A stretch of DNA of 64,000 nt from Variovorax paradoxus B4 (lineage in GTDB: Bacteria; Pseudomonadota; Gammaproteobacteria; Burkholderiales; Burkholderiaceae_C): contig NC_022247.1 in assembly GCF_000463015.1 (NCBI RefSeq), positions 372,001 to 436,000 of the forward strand, read 5' to 3'. Every line of letters begins with the position of its first letter. Position 1 is the first letter of the stretch. The notes under the pieces are model-generated. The model was not told the origin of the DNA and did not search any database. It was given only the letters and a program-made list of their open reading frames with translations. A program made the translations under genes and the position numbers. This document shows, piece by piece, positions 7,060 through 56,016 of this stretch.

Positions 7060-7269
7060 TCAGCTTGCGCGCGCGGCGTCAAAGGCCTCGCGCAGCACGG
7101 CCAGCGAGCCGATGTGGTTGGCCAGCACGAGCACGAGCCGTGCGTTGAAGGCGTGGCTCTCTTCGGTGGAAAGCCCCTGGTGCGCCTCGATCAGCGCCTC
7201 GTAGAAATCGTCGGGGGCCTCGAGGTTGGGTGCGGTGATCAGTTGTTGCTGCTGCATGGTAATGCTCAT
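7060..7269 (-). CDS. Small DUF2783-type protein (69 aa), candidate hydroxylase coupling subunit
   Basis: Short acidic protein of 69 residues, predicted helical, starting MSITMQQQQLITAP and resembling DUF2783. The start at 7269 is supported by a 4-bp ATGA overlap with the stop of the upstream flavoprotein gene; a Met five codons in is an alternative. No enzyme motifs are visible. Its strict coupling to a 63-kDa flavoprotein hydroxylase and to hmgA recalls the two-component 3-hydroxyphenylacetate 6-hydroxylase (large flavoprotein plus tiny coupling protein) described from Pseudomonas. That link is inference from size and position, not from sequence comparison. Confidence 0.75.
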   Translation of the reverse strand: MSITMQQQQLITAPNLEAPDDFYEALIEAHQGLSTEESHAFNARLVLVLANHIGSLAVLREAFDAARAS

Positions 7270-8987
7270 GTCTTTGCCAGTGCGTGGTCGATGGCCGTGC
7301 GGATGTCCGCGGCTGTGGGCTGCCGCCAGCGCGCACACACATGCTGGTCGGGCCGCAGCAGGTAGACGGTGCCGGGTTGCGCGTCGTAGCGCTGCGTGGC
7401 GAGCTCGCCTTCGGGCGTTGCGCCCTCCACGCGCACGACGTGCAGCGGAAAGTCGCAGGACTTCAGCGCCTGCAGGCTGCGCTCGGCCGCTTCGCCCCGG
7501 CCGAACAGCAGCGCCGTGAACTGCGCCACATGGCATTCGCGCAGCAGCCAGCCGATGCGGCCGTCGGCGCGCACGATGGGCGCATCGGCCGCCGCGGCGC
7601 CCGGCACCATCGCGCCTTCGAAGGTGTCGGCGTCGGGCGTGTTGAGCGGCGAATCGCGCAGCACCGCCGGCACCGAGAGCCGCCCGCTGTTGACCAGCGT
7701 GCGCGCGAAGGCGTGGCGTTTCGTCAGCTCGAGCACCGCGTCGCGGAACAGCCGGCTCACCTCGCTCTTGGGCGTGATGAAGTCGGTGGCGCGCGTGGAG
7801 TTGAGGATGTTCTCGTCGGCCGCGTGCTCGCGCTCGCTCGCGTAGGTGTCGAGCAGCGCGTCGGGCGCCTCGCCCTTGAGCACGGCCGCGAGCTTCCACG
7901 CGAGGTTGTCCGCATCCTGCACGCCCGAGTTGGCGCCGCGTGCGCCGAACGGCGACACGCCGTGCGCCGAGTCGCCCGCGAACAGCACGCGGCCATGGCG
8001 GAAGCGCTCCATGCGCTGGCAGGCGAAGGTGTAGACGCTGGCCCAGCCGATCTGGAACTGCACGCCCTCGAAGCCGATGCTGTCGAGCAGCGCGCGCACC
8101 CGCGGCGTGATGTTCTCGGGCTTGCGCTCTTCCACCGGGTCGGCGTCCCAGCCAAGCTGGAAGTCGACGCGCCACATGCCGTCGGCCTGCTTGTGCAGCA
8201 GCACGCTCTGGCCGGGGTGGAACGGCGGGTCGAACCAGAAGCGCCGCTCGTTGGCAAGAATGTGGCCCCCCACGCTCGGCACTTCGTGTCCTCGCTGCCC
8301 CCCCAAGGGGGGGGCGTCCGCCTTGGGGCGGCCCGGCGGCGGACCAGCATCCATCGTGATGTCGGCGATCAGGAAGCGGTCGCGGAACACGCGGCCCTTG
8401 GCTTCGAGGCCCATCAGTTGCCGCAGGTTGGAGCGCGAGCCGTCACAGGCGCCGACGTAATCGGCGGCCAGCCGGTAGTCGCCCTCGGGCGTCTCGACCG
8501 TGAGCACCGCGCCGTCATCGCGCTGCTCGATGCCCGTGACCTTGTTGTTCCAGCGCAGGTCGATCAGCGGCAGCGTTGCGGCACGCTCGACGAGATAGCC
8601 CTCGACGTAGTACTGCTGCAGGTTGATGAAGGCCGGGCGCTCGTGGCCGGGCTCGGGCAGCAGGTCGAAGCGGTAGACCTGCTCGTCGTGGAAGAACACC
8701 TTGCCCACGTGCCACGACACGCCCTTGTCGACCATGCGGTCGCCGCAGCCGAGGCGGTCGAACACCTCGAGCGTGCGCTTGGCAAAGCAGATCGCGCGCG
8801 AGCCGCTGGAGAGGGTGTTGTCGTTGTCGAGCAGCACCACCGGAATTTCGCGCAGCGCAAGGTCGATGGCGAGCGTGAGGCCGACCGGGCCGGCGCCGAC
8901 GATCACGACCGGGTGATGGGCGGGAGTCGCTGCGTCCTGGTCAGCGTGGCGCTCGTAGTCGAAGCGCAGGCTTTGATAGTCGATCAC
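7266..8987 (-). CDS. FAD-dependent aromatic hydroxylase (MhpA/PheA-type flavoprotein)
   Basis: Class A flavoprotein monooxygenase (573 aa). FAD-binding GAGPVG at residues 31-36, the DG motif ACDGSRSNLR near 180-189, and the second FAD motif AGDSAHGVSPFGARGANSGV are all present. The family adds one hydroxyl group to an aromatic ring using NAD(P)H and O2. Adjacent hmgA and fahA suggest that the product is homogentisate, e.g. from 3-hydroxyphenylacetate. Residues about 214-246 form a low-complexity block (G/P-rich) encoded by a GC-rich palindromic repeat and look like an in-frame insertion before the conserved FWFDPPFHPGQ. Substrate is not provable from sequence. Confidence 0.88.
   Translation of the reverse strand: MIDYQSLRFDYERHADQDAATPAHHPVVIVGAGPVGLTLAIDLALREIPVVLLDNDNTLSSGSRAICFAKRTLEVFDRLGCGDRMVDKGVSWHVGKVFFHDEQVYRFDLLPEPGHERPAFINLQQYYVEGYLVERAATLPLIDLRWNNKVTGIEQRDDGAVLTVETPEGDYRLAADYVGACDGSRSNLRQLMGLEAKGRVFRDRFLIADITMDAGPPPGRPKADAPPLGGQRGHEVPSVGGHILANERRFWFDPPFHPGQSVLLHKQADGMWRVDFQLGWDADPVEERKPENITPRVRALLDSIGFEGVQFQIGWASVYTFACQRMERFRHGRVLFAGDSAHGVSPFGARGANSGVQDADNLAWKLAAVLKGEAPDALLDTYASEREHAADENILNSTRATDFITPKSEVSRLFRDAVLELTKRHAFARTLVNSGRLSVPAVLRDSPLNTPDADTFEGAMVPGAAAADAPIVRADGRIGWLLRECHVAQFTALLFGRGEAAERSLQALKSCDFPLHVVRVEGATPEGELATQRYDAQPGTVYLLRPDQHVCARWRQPTAADIRTAIDHALAKT
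8266..8350 (-). repeat. GC-rich palindromic repeat inside the flavoprotein gene
   Basis: Contains CACTTCGTGTC, a run of C7-AA-G8 that folds on itself, and CTTGGGGCGGCCCGG (8322-8336). The same modules in the same order occur in the intergenic copies at 36693-36872 (read on the opposite strand), and the 15-bp module recurs exactly at 47806-47820. Here it lies in frame inside a coding sequence without introducing a stop. Confidence 0.7.
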
Positions 8988-36692: not shown

Positions 36693-36872
36693 ACCGCGGA
36701 ACCGGCTTTGCCGGGCCGCTGGTGTTGCCCCCGGTAGGGGGTTGGCGAAGCGACACGAAGTGCGCGAAGACTGGGGGCGAGCCAAGTGCCACCGCGGAAC
36801 CGGCTTTGCCGGGCCGCTGGTGTTGCCCCCTTGAGGGGGAGTCGAGCGACACGAAGTGAGCGAGGGACGGGG
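36693..36872 (+). repeat. GC-rich palindromic repeat, two tandem copies
   Basis: Two units about 98 bp apart share an identical 40-bp core (36693-36732 and 36791-36830) starting ACCGCGGAACCGGC. The core folds as GCGG-aa-CCGGC-ttt-GCCGG-g-CCGC, and is followed by a CCCCC/GGGGG hairpin and a CGACACGAAGTG tail. A third core is at 55946-55985. They fill the gap between convergent chrA and tctA and may act as transcription end or mRNA stabilisers. Confidence 0.85.
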
Positions 36873-45819: not shown

Positions 45820-47832
45820 TCATGCGTCGGCAATCTCGGCCACCACATGGCGCGCGGCCACCTGCGCGCCCACCGTCACATGCAACGCGGCGACACGGCC
45901 GGCGCGCGGTGCACAGTGCACATGTTCCATCTTCATCGCCTCGAGCGTGGCGATCGGCTGGCCGGCGGCGACGGCGTCGCCTTCCGCCACGAGCAGCGCG
46001 ACGACGCGGCCGTTCATCGAGGCGCGCAGCAGGCCGTCGCCACCCGCGGCGCCGGTGCGCGGCACCGCGACATGCGTGAGGTCCTGGAATTCGAAGGCCT
46101 GGCCGCGGAAATGGATCCACTGGCGAACGGCGGATTCGCGCACCGCCATGGCCTGCTCCGAGACGCCATCGCACGAGAAGCACAAGGCGCCATCGCCGGC
46201 CAGCGAAAGAAGTTCGATCCGGGCCGGTGCCGCTGCATCGAGGGCGACATCGAAACGGCCCGCACCCTGCGGCGTCACGCGCGCCGCATGCACCATGCCG
46301 TCGAGCGAAAAGCGCAAGGCGTTGGGCAGCGTATGCGCGAGCGGCGAGGGCCATCCGCGTTCGCCCAGCTGCAGCAGCAGCGCCGCCAGCCATGCGGCGC
46401 GGCGCTCCATGGCGGGATCGGGCGCAAGCAATGCCTCGGCGTGTTCGGCAATGAACGCCGTCGTGGCCGAACCGCCGGCAAACGCCGGATGCGACAGCGC
46501 GCGCTGAAGGAAGCGCTGGTTGGTCGCAAGGCCCAATGCCACCGTGTCCTGCAGCCCCGCGATCAGCCGGCGTCTCGCTTCTTCGCGCGTGCGGCCGTGG
46601 GCCACCAGCTTGGCGATCATCGAATCGTAGAAGGGCGGCACCGCGGCGCCGTCTCGCAGCGCGTGTTCGATGCGCAGGGCGGCCGAGGGGCGCCACGCGG
46701 CCAGCGTGCCGCTTTGCGGCACGAAGCCCTGCTGCGGAACTTCTGCACACAGCCGCACTTCGATGGCATGGCCGCTCATGCGCACGTCCTGCTGTGCAAG
46801 AGGCAGCGGCTCGCCCGCCGCAATGCGCAGCTGCAGCTCGACCAGGTCGAGTCCCGTCACGGCTTCGGTCACCGGATGCTCCACCTGCAGCCGGGTGTTC
46901 ATTTCCATGAACCAGTACTCTCCCTTCGCATCGAGCAGGAATTCGAGCGTGCCCGCGCCTTCGTAGCCGATGGCCTCGGCCGCCGCCACCGCCGTCGCGC
47001 CCATGCGCTCGCGCAATGCCCCGGAGACGGCGGGGGAGGGCGTTTCCTCGATCAGCTTCTGATGCCGGCGCTGCACCGAGCAGTCGCGCTCGCCAAGGTG
47101 GATGGCGTTGCCGTGCCGGTCGGCGAACACCTGGATCTCGATGTGGCGCGGCGCGGCGATGGCGCGCTCCAGGATCACCGTCGCGTCGCCGAAGGCATGG
47201 AGCGCCTCGGACTGCGCGCTCTGCAGCAGTTCGGCAAAGGCATCGGCCGAAGGCGCGAGCCGCATGCCGCGCCCGCCGCCGCCGGCGGTCGCCTTGATCA
47301 TCACGGGCCAGCCGATGCGCGCGGCTTCGGCAGCGAGCGTGGCCGCGCTCTGGTCTTCACCCTGGTAGCCGGGAATGCAGGGCACGCCGGCCGCCTGCAT
47401 CAGCCGCTTCGCGCCCGCCTTGTCGCCCATGGCGCGAATGGCTTCAGGCGAAGGGCCGATGAAGACCAGCCTCGCATCGCGGCAGGCCTGCGCGAACTCG
47501 GCGTTCTCTGCCAGGAAGCCGTAGCCCGGATGGACCGCTTCGGCGCCGCTCGAACGCGCGGCTTCGACGATGGCGACGATGTTCAGATAGCTTTGCGCAG
47601 GCAGCGGCTCGCCGATCCACACGGCCTGGTCGGCCTGCCGCACATGCTCCGCATCGGCGTCGGCGCTCGAATACACGGCCACCGTGCGATAGCCCAAGGC
47701 GCGCGCGGTGCGCATCACGCGCACCGCGATCTCGCCGCGGTTGGCGACGAGGATCTTGTGGAAACATCGGGAAGCCTCCGCGCTTCGCGCTGCGGCGCGA
47801 GCTTGCTTGGGGCGGCCCGGCGCTGCGCTCAT
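45820..47832 (-). CDS. Acyl-CoA carboxylase alpha subunit (biotin carboxylase + BCCP; MCC/geranyl-CoA type)
   Basis: 670-aa subunit with an N-terminal biotin carboxylase domain (KILVANRGEIAVRVMRTA, ATAGGGGRGMRLA, EMNTRLQVEHPVTE) and a C-terminal biotinyl domain with EAMKME (Lys about 634). It carboxylates biotin using ATP and bicarbonate. Relative to relatives that begin at FKKILIANRG, this protein has about 25 extra N-terminal residues (MSAAPGRPKQARAAARSAEA) encoded by the GC-rich repeat. Start at 47832 is fixed by an ATGA overlap with the carboxyltransferase gene. Confidence 0.92.
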   Translation of the reverse strand: MSAAPGRPKQARAAARSAEASRCFHKILVANRGEIAVRVMRTARALGYRTVAVYSSADADAEHVRQADQAVWIGEPLPAQSYLNIVAIVEAARSSGAEAVHPGYGFLAENAEFAQACRDARLVFIGPSPEAIRAMGDKAGAKRLMQAAGVPCIPGYQGEDQSAATLAAEAARIGWPVMIKATAGGGGRGMRLAPSADAFAELLQSAQSEALHAFGDATVILERAIAAPRHIEIQVFADRHGNAIHLGERDCSVQRRHQKLIEETPSPAVSGALRERMGATAVAAAEAIGYEGAGTLEFLLDAKGEYWFMEMNTRLQVEHPVTEAVTGLDLVELQLRIAAGEPLPLAQQDVRMSGHAIEVRLCAEVPQQGFVPQSGTLAAWRPSAALRIEHALRDGAAVPPFYDSMIAKLVAHGRTREEARRRLIAGLQDTVALGLATNQRFLQRALSHPAFAGGSATTAFIAEHAEALLAPDPAMERRAAWLAALLLQLGERGWPSPLAHTLPNALRFSLDGMVHAARVTPQGAGRFDVALDAAAPARIELLSLAGDGALCFSCDGVSEQAMAVRESAVRQWIHFRGQAFEFQDLTHVAVPRTGAAGGDGLLRASMNGRVVALLVAEGDAVAAGQPIATLEAMKMEHVHCAPRAGRVAALHVTVGAQVAARHVVAEIADA
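47760..47832 (-). repeat. GC-rich repeat fragment at the biotin carboxylase start
   Basis: Includes CTTGGGGCGGCCCGG (47806-47820), identical to 8322-8336 inside the flavoprotein gene and related to the intergenic repeats. It encodes most of the non-conserved N-terminal extension of the carboxylase. Confidence 0.6.
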
Positions 47833-49451
47833 GGCCGCGCCACCGAGAACTGCATCGCCTGCGGCACACGCGCATCGGCATCGCGGCACACCGAAAGCAC
47901 TTCGGCCAGCACCGCGCGCGTGTCGCGCGGGTCGATCACGCCGTCGTCGAGCAGCATCGCACTGGTGGTGAACACGCTCGTCTGCCGCTCGAAGCGCTCG
48001 AGGATCTGCTGGCGCATGGCGTCGATCTTCGCGTGGTCGACCGCATCCTTGCCCCCGTTCTTTCGCGCCATGCCGGCCTCCATCACGATGGCCATGGTCT
48101 GCGCCGCCTGCTCGCCGCCCATCACCGCGGTGCGCGCGTTGGGCCACGAGAAGCAGAAGCGCGGCGCGAAGCCGCGGCCGCACATGCCGTAGTTGCCCGC
48201 ACCATAGGAGGCGCCGCAATGCAGCGTGACCTGCGGCACCGTGGCGCTGGTCACGGCCTGGATCATCTTGGCGCCGTGCTTGATGATGCCGGCCTCCTCG
48301 TGCGCGCGGCCCACCATGTAGCCGGTGATGTTCTGCAGATACACGATGGGCGTGCGCGACTGGCAGCAGGCCTGGATGAAGTGCGTGGCCTTGGTGGCGC
48401 CGTCGGAGTCGATGGGCCCGTTGTTGGTGACGATGCCCACCGCATGGCCTTCGAGCCGCATCTGCCCGCACACCGTGGCGCTGCCGTAGTGCGCGCTGAA
48501 TTCGAGGAACTCGGAGCCGTCGGCAATGCGCGCGATCACCTCGCGCATGTCCACCGGCCGCCGGCCGTCGCTCGGCATGATGCCGAGCAGTTCCTCGGCC
48601 GCGTAGAGCGGCGGCGCGAACCGGCGCGGCGCCTCGTCGCGCGCCCAGTCGATGCCGCCGAGGATCGAGCGCGCGATGCGGATGGCGTCGCGGTCGCCCT
48701 CGGCCAGGTAGTCGCCGAGGCCTGAAATGTGGGTGTGCATCACGGCACCGCCCAGTTCCTCTTCGGTGGCGATTTCGCCGGTGGCCGCCTTGAGCAGCGG
48801 CGGGCCGGCCAGGAAGGCGCGGGTGCGGTCGCGCACCATCACGATGTAGTCTGAAAGGCCAGTCTGGTAGGCGCCGCCCGCGGTCGATGAGCCGTGCGTC
48901 ACCGTCACCACGGGCAGGCCGGCGGCGGAAAGCCGTGCCAGGTTGCGGAAGATGCCGCCGCCGCGCACGAAGTCCTGCACCCGGTATTGCATGAGATTGG
49001 CGCCCGCGCTTTCCACCAGCTGGACGTAGGGCAGCTTGTTCTCGAGCGCGATTTCCTGCACGCGCAGCTGCTTGTCCAGCCCCATGGGCTGCAGCGCGCC
49101 GGCGTCGATGCCCGAGTCGGAGGCGCTGACCATGCAGCGCACACCCGAGACCCGGCCGATGCCCGCGATCACGCCGCCGCCGGGCACGCTCCGGCCGAGG
49201 TCTTCGTTGTCGTGTCCCAGCCCTGCGAGCGAGGCCAGCGGCAGAAAGGGGGCGCCGGTGTCCAGCAGCAGCGCGAGCCGTTCGCGCGGCAGCAATTGGC
49301 CGCGCCGGGCAAAGCGCTCGGCCGAGGCGTTCGAAGCCGCCGCCGCGCGGGCCTCGTGCGCGCGCACCTGCCCGAGCAAGGCCAGCATGCCGGCGCGATG
49401 GGCCTGGAAGGATTCGCTGGCCGCGTTCAGCCGGGATTCGATGACGGGCAT
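47829..49451 (-). CDS. Acyl-CoA carboxylase beta subunit (carboxyltransferase; methylcrotonyl-/geranyl-CoA type)
   Basis: 540-aa carboxyltransferase with both crotonase-like halves. Acyl-CoA site motifs include GSSTAGGAYQTGLSD and FLAGPPLLKAATGEIATEEELGG; the C-terminal biotin-site half has GAGNYGMCGRGFAPRF. Transfers CO2 from biotin to a branched alpha,beta-unsaturated acyl-CoA. First gene of a five-gene operon. The start at 49451 has no Shine-Dalgarno sequence: the bases before it form the 3' arm of a 13-bp palindrome. Substrate (3-methylcrotonyl- or geranyl-CoA) not decidable by eye. Confidence 0.92.
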   Translation of the reverse strand: MPVIESRLNAASESFQAHRAGMLALLGQVRAHEARAAAASNASAERFARRGQLLPRERLALLLDTGAPFLPLASLAGLGHDNEDLGRSVPGGGVIAGIGRVSGVRCMVSASDSGIDAGALQPMGLDKQLRVQEIALENKLPYVQLVESAGANLMQYRVQDFVRGGGIFRNLARLSAAGLPVVTVTHGSSTAGGAYQTGLSDYIVMVRDRTRAFLAGPPLLKAATGEIATEEELGGAVMHTHISGLGDYLAEGDRDAIRIARSILGGIDWARDEAPRRFAPPLYAAEELLGIMPSDGRRPVDMREVIARIADGSEFLEFSAHYGSATVCGQMRLEGHAVGIVTNNGPIDSDGATKATHFIQACCQSRTPIVYLQNITGYMVGRAHEEAGIIKHGAKMIQAVTSATVPQVTLHCGASYGAGNYGMCGRGFAPRFCFSWPNARTAVMGGEQAAQTMAIVMEAGMARKNGGKDAVDHAKIDAMRQQILERFERQTSVFTTSAMLLDDGVIDPRDTRAVLAEVLSVCRDADARVPQAMQFSVARP

Positions 49452-55945: not shown

Positions 55946-56016
55946 ACCGCGGAACCGGCTTTGCCGGGCCGCTGGTGTTGCCCCCGGTAGGGGGAAGGCG
56001 TAGCCTTGGGGGCGTG
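55946..56016 (+). repeat. GC-rich palindromic repeat, third intergenic copy
   Basis: 40-bp core (55946-55985) identical to those at 36693 and 36791, then CCCCC-ggta-GGGGG and a GCCTTGGGGGCGTG end. Lies between the phosphodiesterase stop and the M20 hydrolase start, both rightward, with no other gene in the gap. Confidence 0.85.

Follow-up and report, generated by a model that had tools for sequence, protein, structure and literature searches.

The FAD-dependent hydroxylase gene of Variovorax paradoxus B4 carries a short, mostly intergenic hairpin repeat that has probably inserted in frame and been tolerated as a disordered loop. The gene lies in the 64,000-nucleotide stretch analysed here (the window), part of a 7.15 Mb genome of two contigs. 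Its product scores 843 bits against NCBIfam PRK08132.1 (cut-off 416) and also matches Pfam FAD_binding_3, and between RFLIADITMDA and ERRFWF it is 28 residues longer than most of its relatives. From RFLIADITM to RRFWF this gene measures 105 nt and 69 of 77 orthologues measure 21 nt, a net gain of 84 nt; the initial annotation had recognized the inserted block but put it at about 33 residues. The repeat is present where that annotation had placed it, since covariance model R1, built from 31 rows with the hydroxylase copy among them, matches 8269-8349 on the minus strand with 88.8 bits (E 5.8e-15). BLASTN, which is independent of the model, detects further occurrences of this DNA in the genome, the best other match having E 7.5e-22. 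The CCACATT tail of the hydroxylase copy terminates some other copies as well. A known RNA family as the identity of the repeat was ruled out by an Rfam search of window positions 8000-8600, which gave no match at E up to 1. Coordinates are collected in Table 1.

Table 1. The hydroxylase gene, its repeat and related repeats in the window
Feature	Position	Strand	Evidence and remarks
FAD-dependent hydroxylase gene, 573 aa, open frame intact	7266..8987	-	NCBIfam PRK08132.1
Entire in-frame repeat	8259..8345	-	Net +84 nt versus empty site; includes CCACATT tail; outer edges placed by eye, uncertain by a few bases
Hairpin 1, arms GTCCGCC / GGCGGAC, conserved loop GCCGGGCCGCCCCAA	8316..8344	-	Alignment and covariation
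Hairpin 2, C run versus G run	8298..8314	-	Inverted-repeat listing, RNAalifold
Hairpin 3, CAGCGAGGACACGAAGTGCCGAGCGTG, compensatory changes among copies	8271..8297	-	RNAalifold, covariation
Related intergenic repeat with a different first hairpin (CCGGCTTTGCCGG)	36695..36770	+	R1 E 1.2, no better than chance, not significant alone
Tandem second copy of the related repeat	36793..36870	+	R1 E 0.004
Possible partial relative with the loop of hairpin 1 in common	47777..47833	-	17 identical bases; R1 E 0.047, weak

The repeat is a GC-rich element of about 80 nt composed of three hairpins. RNAalifold, run on 31 aligned copies, folds them into three hairpins in a row, the first of which has a small additional helix within its loop. 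The term palindromic, used in the initial annotation, is less apt, as there is no single palindrome. A pattern covering the shared right half has 32 matches, the hydroxylase copy being one of them, and none in the reversed control. Among the 31 copies 95.7% of the cells are paired (87.9 in shuffles) and 46 are double-changed (10.3 in shuffles, which correct only partly for kinship among the copies; 0 of 500 as high). Sliding the pairing partners abolishes this signal. In seven of the 31 rows the place is already represented, by a tandem neighbour or by the corresponding gene or place of another species, and the covariation was therefore recounted with one copy per place. The 24 rows of this set are 95.4% paired (shuffles 87.8) and have 37 double-changed cells (shuffles 8.4, with 0 of 1000 as high). 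A measure of further pair types is unremarkable, with 123 of 500 shuffles as high in the set of 31.

Hairpin 1 has 37 distinct arm pairs, some of them from a place sampled in two or more species, and on average 6.65 of 8 positions are complementary, against 4.56 with the arms swapped (the maximum of 2000 shuffles being 5.24). The arms read, for example, CCATTGGC/GCCAATGG, GTCGGCGC/GCGCCGAC or GCCTGCC/GGCAGGC, and it is therefore the pairing, not the sequence, that is conserved in this hairpin. A few copies have unpaired arms (L174 and L182 pair at 2 of 8). Folding of the single window copy is no better than that of its own shuffles (z -0.66 as DNA, -0.69 as RNA), so the hairpin structure rests on covariation. 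Template-switch correction is a mechanism acting between hairpin arms; either this or selection on the folded DNA or RNA may account for stems that stay paired yet vary. Copying of the hairpin 1 arms from the target was considered and rejected, as no convincing arm match is seen by eye in the empty hydroxylase and aroA alleles.

The ends of the element were compared by eye in 35 copies. No terminal inverted repeats are seen at the window copy, whose edges are uncertain, only internal ones at 8200-8400. A by-eye comparison of filled and empty sites in hydroxylase, aroA and recQ yields no clean target-site duplication; the repeats seen at these sites are short and ambiguous (GCGGG in aroA, for example). 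No transposase was found for the element.

Related repeats occur elsewhere in the window. The repeats at 36693-36872 have the C5/G5 hairpin and the GACACGAAGTG part in common with the hydroxylase copy and differ in the first hairpin. They had been described as the same modules in reverse order; the common parts are real, but these are not the same modules rearranged, and the order appears reversed because the repeats stand on the opposite strand. Similarly, the 15 bases said to be shared with 47806-47820 are a true identity, which extends to 17 bases (47806-47822) and covers the conserved loop of hairpin 1 only. The other repeat form (CCGCGGAACCGGCTTTGCCGGGCCGCTGGTG...) has three copies in the window, two in tandem at 36695-36870 and one at about 55948-56010. 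A short repeat of the type CGGGCCGCCCCAAGC.AGCTCGC or alike is seen at 47777-47833 and at loci L085-L091. Here ATGAGCGC precedes 7 of 7 copies, the window copy included, and overlaps what could be a stop (TGA) and a start (ATG). Read by eye, the window's carboxylase frame continues upstream through the 47777-47833 repeat as MSAAPGRPKQAR...

The genome search proposed in the initial annotation gives 20 R1 matches in the genome itself; within the family, 173 of 200 genomes, representing 127 of 141 genera, have at least one match (E <= 0.01). The best match is at E <= 1e-5 in 164 of the 200, and the weakest are doubtful, 9 of the 173 genomes having a best E above 1e-5. Family-wide copy numbers per genome are lower bounds, with at most 23 candidates scored in each. 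Across the order, 33 of 300 genomes have a match at E <= 0.001, 9 of them in the same family and 24 in other families. A role as an uptake signal was set aside, since 20 matches per 7.1 Mb are few. A codon-frame test of the same 20 matches leaves three that are in frame and open, in the hydroxylase, a response regulator and the AroA-Cmk fusion.

Placement was examined for 56 located copies (11 from this genome, 24 from other Variovorax and 21 from other genera, some being the same place in two species). As a raw count, 21 have a gene end 1-9 nt from the G-rich end of the element, which is antisense to that gene, and these divide 7, 6 and 8 among the three sources. A gene end within 25 nt of the opposite element end occurs in 3 of the 56. 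This suggests that the usual place of the element is directly behind stop codons. Eight extragenic copies in the V. paradoxus B4 genome (L386, L387, L389, L390, L392-L394 and L396) are antisense with the in-frame stop of the neighbour 1-9 nt from the G-rich end, although at L396 the coding signal of the neighbour gene is below threshold. The stop-adjacent copies of this genome may act at transcription ends.

Several other conserved genes contain the element. The AroA-Cmk fusion of the same genome scores 1182.7 bits (cut-off 943) with one model stretch spanning the insert, and a single stretch also spans the inserts in RecQ and HutH of G099 and HrpA of G023, all above curated cut-offs. UvrA of G065 and a FemAB-like gene of G096 pass their curated cut-offs in two model stretches each, and ImuA of G096 does so with a best stretch that stops short of the insert. 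Threonine synthase (ThrC) of G237, from another genus, scores 214.7 bits against a cut-off of 167.1, the passing stretch ending at the insert. Both orientations occur among the in-gene inserts, as does more than one reading frame. They were sought via open frames, so insertions that break the frame would be missed. The comparison with empty relatives covers hydroxylase, aroA and recQ. The letters alone suggest a second repeat-like stretch, SAAPGRSKQASAPSGGGEPREAGSAG, in the UvrA protein of G065 (L173). Tandem copies hinted at by the letters of the FemAB-like gene of G093 gave no match when checked.

The hydroxylase site was followed through 101 genomes of the genus, from which 90 loci (30 + 60) were fetched and 77 compared, 13 being left out as paralogues without the RFLIAD...ER[RK]FWF motif. 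The distance from RFLIADITM to RRFWF is 21 nt in 69 genes, 105 nt in 5, and 96, 108 and 45 nt in 1 each. Seven genes in the 105, 96 and 108 nt classes carry the repeat (G000, G092, G023, G099, G096, G093 and G065), with net lengths of +84, +75 or +87 nt, every one a multiple of three and without a stop. The homologue alignment proposed in the initial annotation therefore finds the block missing from 69 of 77 orthologues and present in 7, and among the genes read there is no case of the block being conserved in distant homologues whose DNA lacks the repeat. The empty sites are exactly 21 nt in 69 of 69, with residues LPT in 65. The 45 nt gene, from G012 (Variovorax dokdonensis; L045 and L268), has a different insert of 24 nt, DGTDGGAGAMPP, which is not the repeat and lies at the same turn where others show xLPT; the turn is thus again shown to tolerate insertions. 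A further set of 80 loci from named genomes was readable at the site in 46, and 2 of these have the repeat (Variovorax sp. 770b2 and one Variovorax metagenome genome). These two were not added to the count because, judged by position, they are probably G092 and G099, the latter a metagenome assembly.

The hydroxylase loop of the seven carriers holds three allele types. Type I (G000, G092, G023 and G099) reads DA|GPPPGRP...GG(D/H)IL, and type II (G096 and G093) reads (A/L)D|RPPPGRP...VGAEAL. Type III (G065) starts four codons further on, is of a different sub-variant, GACACGCCAGTG, and has its middle part in another frame. In a gene tree built from the 77 proteins after cutting out the insert, 35 of 74 inner branches are well supported; the carriers are scattered and most adjoin empty sisters. 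G023 is sister to the empty G071, G099 groups with the empty G020, G055 and G002, and G065 with the empty G036 and G066, and G000 and G092 fall in other parts of the tree. G096 neighbours G093, with the empty G041 and G094 alongside, and the two carriers have both insert and flanks in common, as expected from plain descent.

Between carriers, the 81 nt of the type I insert are 95-99% identical. At third codon positions identity is 0.93-1.00 in the insert, 0.78-0.88 upstream and 0.82-0.87 downstream, and the insert exceeds both flanks in 6 of 6 pairs (27 positions each). The blocks adjoining the insert in G099 and G023 most resemble those of empty relatives, not those of other carriers. The insert thus seems to have a history separate from its flanks, and the exchanged patch would be very short. 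The nine bases to the right of the element in G023 (CTCCCCACC) match the empty relatives G009 and G062, and in G099 they are CTTTCCAAC, where its sisters have CTGCCGACC, CTGCCCACG or CTGCCCACC and G000 has the similar CTTGCCAAC. No long recombination tract is evident around the insert in the clear comparisons (G099 and G023); the picture is mixed for the aroA carriers G082, G003 and G000 and for recQ of G050, in which some blocks are equally near carriers and empty relatives.

AroA and recQ carriers are also scattered. The 30 aroA loci and 30 recQ loci of the genus are those scoring best for an insert-bearing query, so carriers are over-represented in the counts that follow. Four aroA loci have a recognizable element (G000, G003, G082 and G036), three have shorter or diverged loops (G085, G096 and G094), 22 a short loop, and 1 is unmatched. 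For recQ, 7 loci have the element, 1 has an unrelated long loop and 22 are short. Five genus recQ carriers have similar non-element residues on the left, and the flanks of recQ in G099 are clearly those of empty relatives.

The recQ loop, which lies directly before the CGNCDNC cysteines, is occupied in other genera as well. Family-wide, 23 of the 30 best-scoring loci for an insert-bearing query, a choice that again over-represents carriers, could be read; by eye there are 8 clear sense copies (one of them, in G150, read in another frame), at least 4 diverged or interrupted copies and 1 in the opposite orientation (G179). R1 places the element within recQ in at least G147, G144, G231, G148 and G155 in the family search and G170 and G120 in the search of the order. 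The insertion has the same right junction in several genera, and the different orientations and frames indicate that this loop was entered more than once. In eleven recQ carriers third positions are on average 0.91 identical within the insert and 0.74 in each flank, and in 55 of 55 pairs the insert has the higher value, although the pattern that picked these rows demanded a similar insert of equal length and so favours alike inserts. At L372, L375 and L378, in other genera, the same recQ loop has other extra sequence containing ATAGCTG and suggestive of a second repeat family.

We read the scattered carriers with their alike inserts as repeated insertion plus the exchange of very short patches. 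Presence and absence at the same site, the many places occupied and the two orientations support the proposal of the initial annotation that a mobile element has inserted into the gene. The hairpin repeat probably resides mainly between genes, often right behind stops, in Variovorax and its family, and may move as a folded strand aided by an enzyme not linked to it. Inserted alleles could then be exchanged between species in patches that bring along about ten to thirty foreign flank bases, and selection would retain only in-frame copies that do little harm, so that copies would survive only where the protein tolerates a loop. More broadly, and held only tentatively, the element may be a family-wide, structure-maintained mobile hairpin that spreads in units of about 100 nt, keeps its pairing through a process on the folded strand (template-switch correction, or selection at the level of ssDNA or RNA), lands behind stops or in permissive loops, and has in-gene alleles that cross species and genera almost without flanks to re-occupy the RecQ, AroA and hydroxylase loops.

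The evidence separates short-patch exchange only partly from recurrent insertion at one preferred site. The element may have a preferred sequence or single-stranded spot at the turn, into which type I copies inserted independently in each carrier. Three allele types within one hydroxylase loop, two orientations and more than one frame in the recQ loop, and the empty-type bases to the right of the element in G023 are as expected from this. It is nevertheless doubtful as a full account, since type I carriers have both junctions in common, the nine right-hand bases of G099 are unlike those of its sisters and resemble those of G000, and the left-hand residues of the five genus recQ carriers are similar.

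A single old insertion in the ancestor of the genus, with many losses and the present carriers as survivors, is unlikely. Plain descent of this kind is consistent with the aroA loops of G085, G096 and G094, which resemble decaying copies, with the identical right junction of recQ insertions in several genera, and with the insert and flanks that G096 and G093 have in common. It would however require many exact losses, given the uniform length of the 69 empty hydroxylase genes and the LPT residues in 65 of them, and descent alone does not fit an insert that is more alike than its flanks.

AlphaFold2, run on a 51-sequence alignment, gives a mean pLDDT of 86.5 for the hydroxylase and values below 50 for residues 216-243, between strands 196-212 and 247-252. 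The inserted block is therefore most likely a floppy disordered loop in the model, in agreement with the surface loop proposed earlier. The enzyme would tolerate it because translation of the block, which has no stop in this frame, yields a disordered Gly/Pro-rich loop at the turn between two strands. That the block is instead a functional part of the enzyme under protein-level selection is very improbable: the frame is open in 7 of 7 hydroxylase carriers, but the block is missing from 69 of 77 orthologues and is predicted to be disordered, and unrelated proteins contain translations of related DNA in different frames and orientations. Mitochondrial translational bypassing elements (byps) are skipped by the ribosome, and although compact hairpins within conserved genes recall them, there is very little chance that the block goes untranslated in this way, as 7 of 7 hydroxylase copies are a net multiple of three without a stop and skipping needs neither.

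The best-known protein-coding palindromes are those of Rickettsia, a lineage that is intracellular and reduced. Their counterpart in a free-living family that can be cultured (in genes such as aroA, recQ, uvrA and thrC) would make the movement of such repeats and their effects on proteins testable, and close sister species offer filled and empty alleles. The positions common across species may record, in nature, the exchange of very short patches among bacteria. Annotators gain an explanation for the Gly/Pro-rich loops, such as GPPxGRPKA...GGQRGHEVPSVGA, that recur in unrelated proteins. No published description naming this repeat was found in the open-licence literature.

Among known systems, MITEs such as ERIC/RU-1 and Correia/NEMIS are described as small non-autonomous repeats, some of them in frame in genes (PMC2229807). 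The Variovorax element is also small with some copies in frame, but the window copy, within the uncertainty of its edges, shows only internal inverted repeats and no clear target duplication. REP/REPIN sequences are reported as intergenic hairpin repeats in many copies, associated with RAYT transposases (PMC2817692, PMC3733652). The element resembles them as a many-copy intergenic hairpin repeat and differs in having copies in frame within genes. A RAYT mobilizing gene beside the element was ruled out, since the motifs searched for occur within about 1.5 kb of 0 of 11 RAYT (PF01797, Y1_Tnp) loci; each of the 11 genomes has one RAYT-like gene, which might act in trans. Rickettsia palindromic elements (RPE) are described as short hairpin repeats found between genes and in frame within unrelated conserved genes (PMC2229807, PMC3733652), with lengths of 105-146 nt (PMC2229807). 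The Variovorax element likewise lies between genes and in frame in unrelated genes. It differs from RPE as described in its length of about 80 nt with three covarying hairpins, in its hosts, which are free-living GC-rich Burkholderiales (Variovorax and its kin) and not Rickettsia, and in having a site and allele common to scattered species. It thus seems to work like RPE but to belong to another family.
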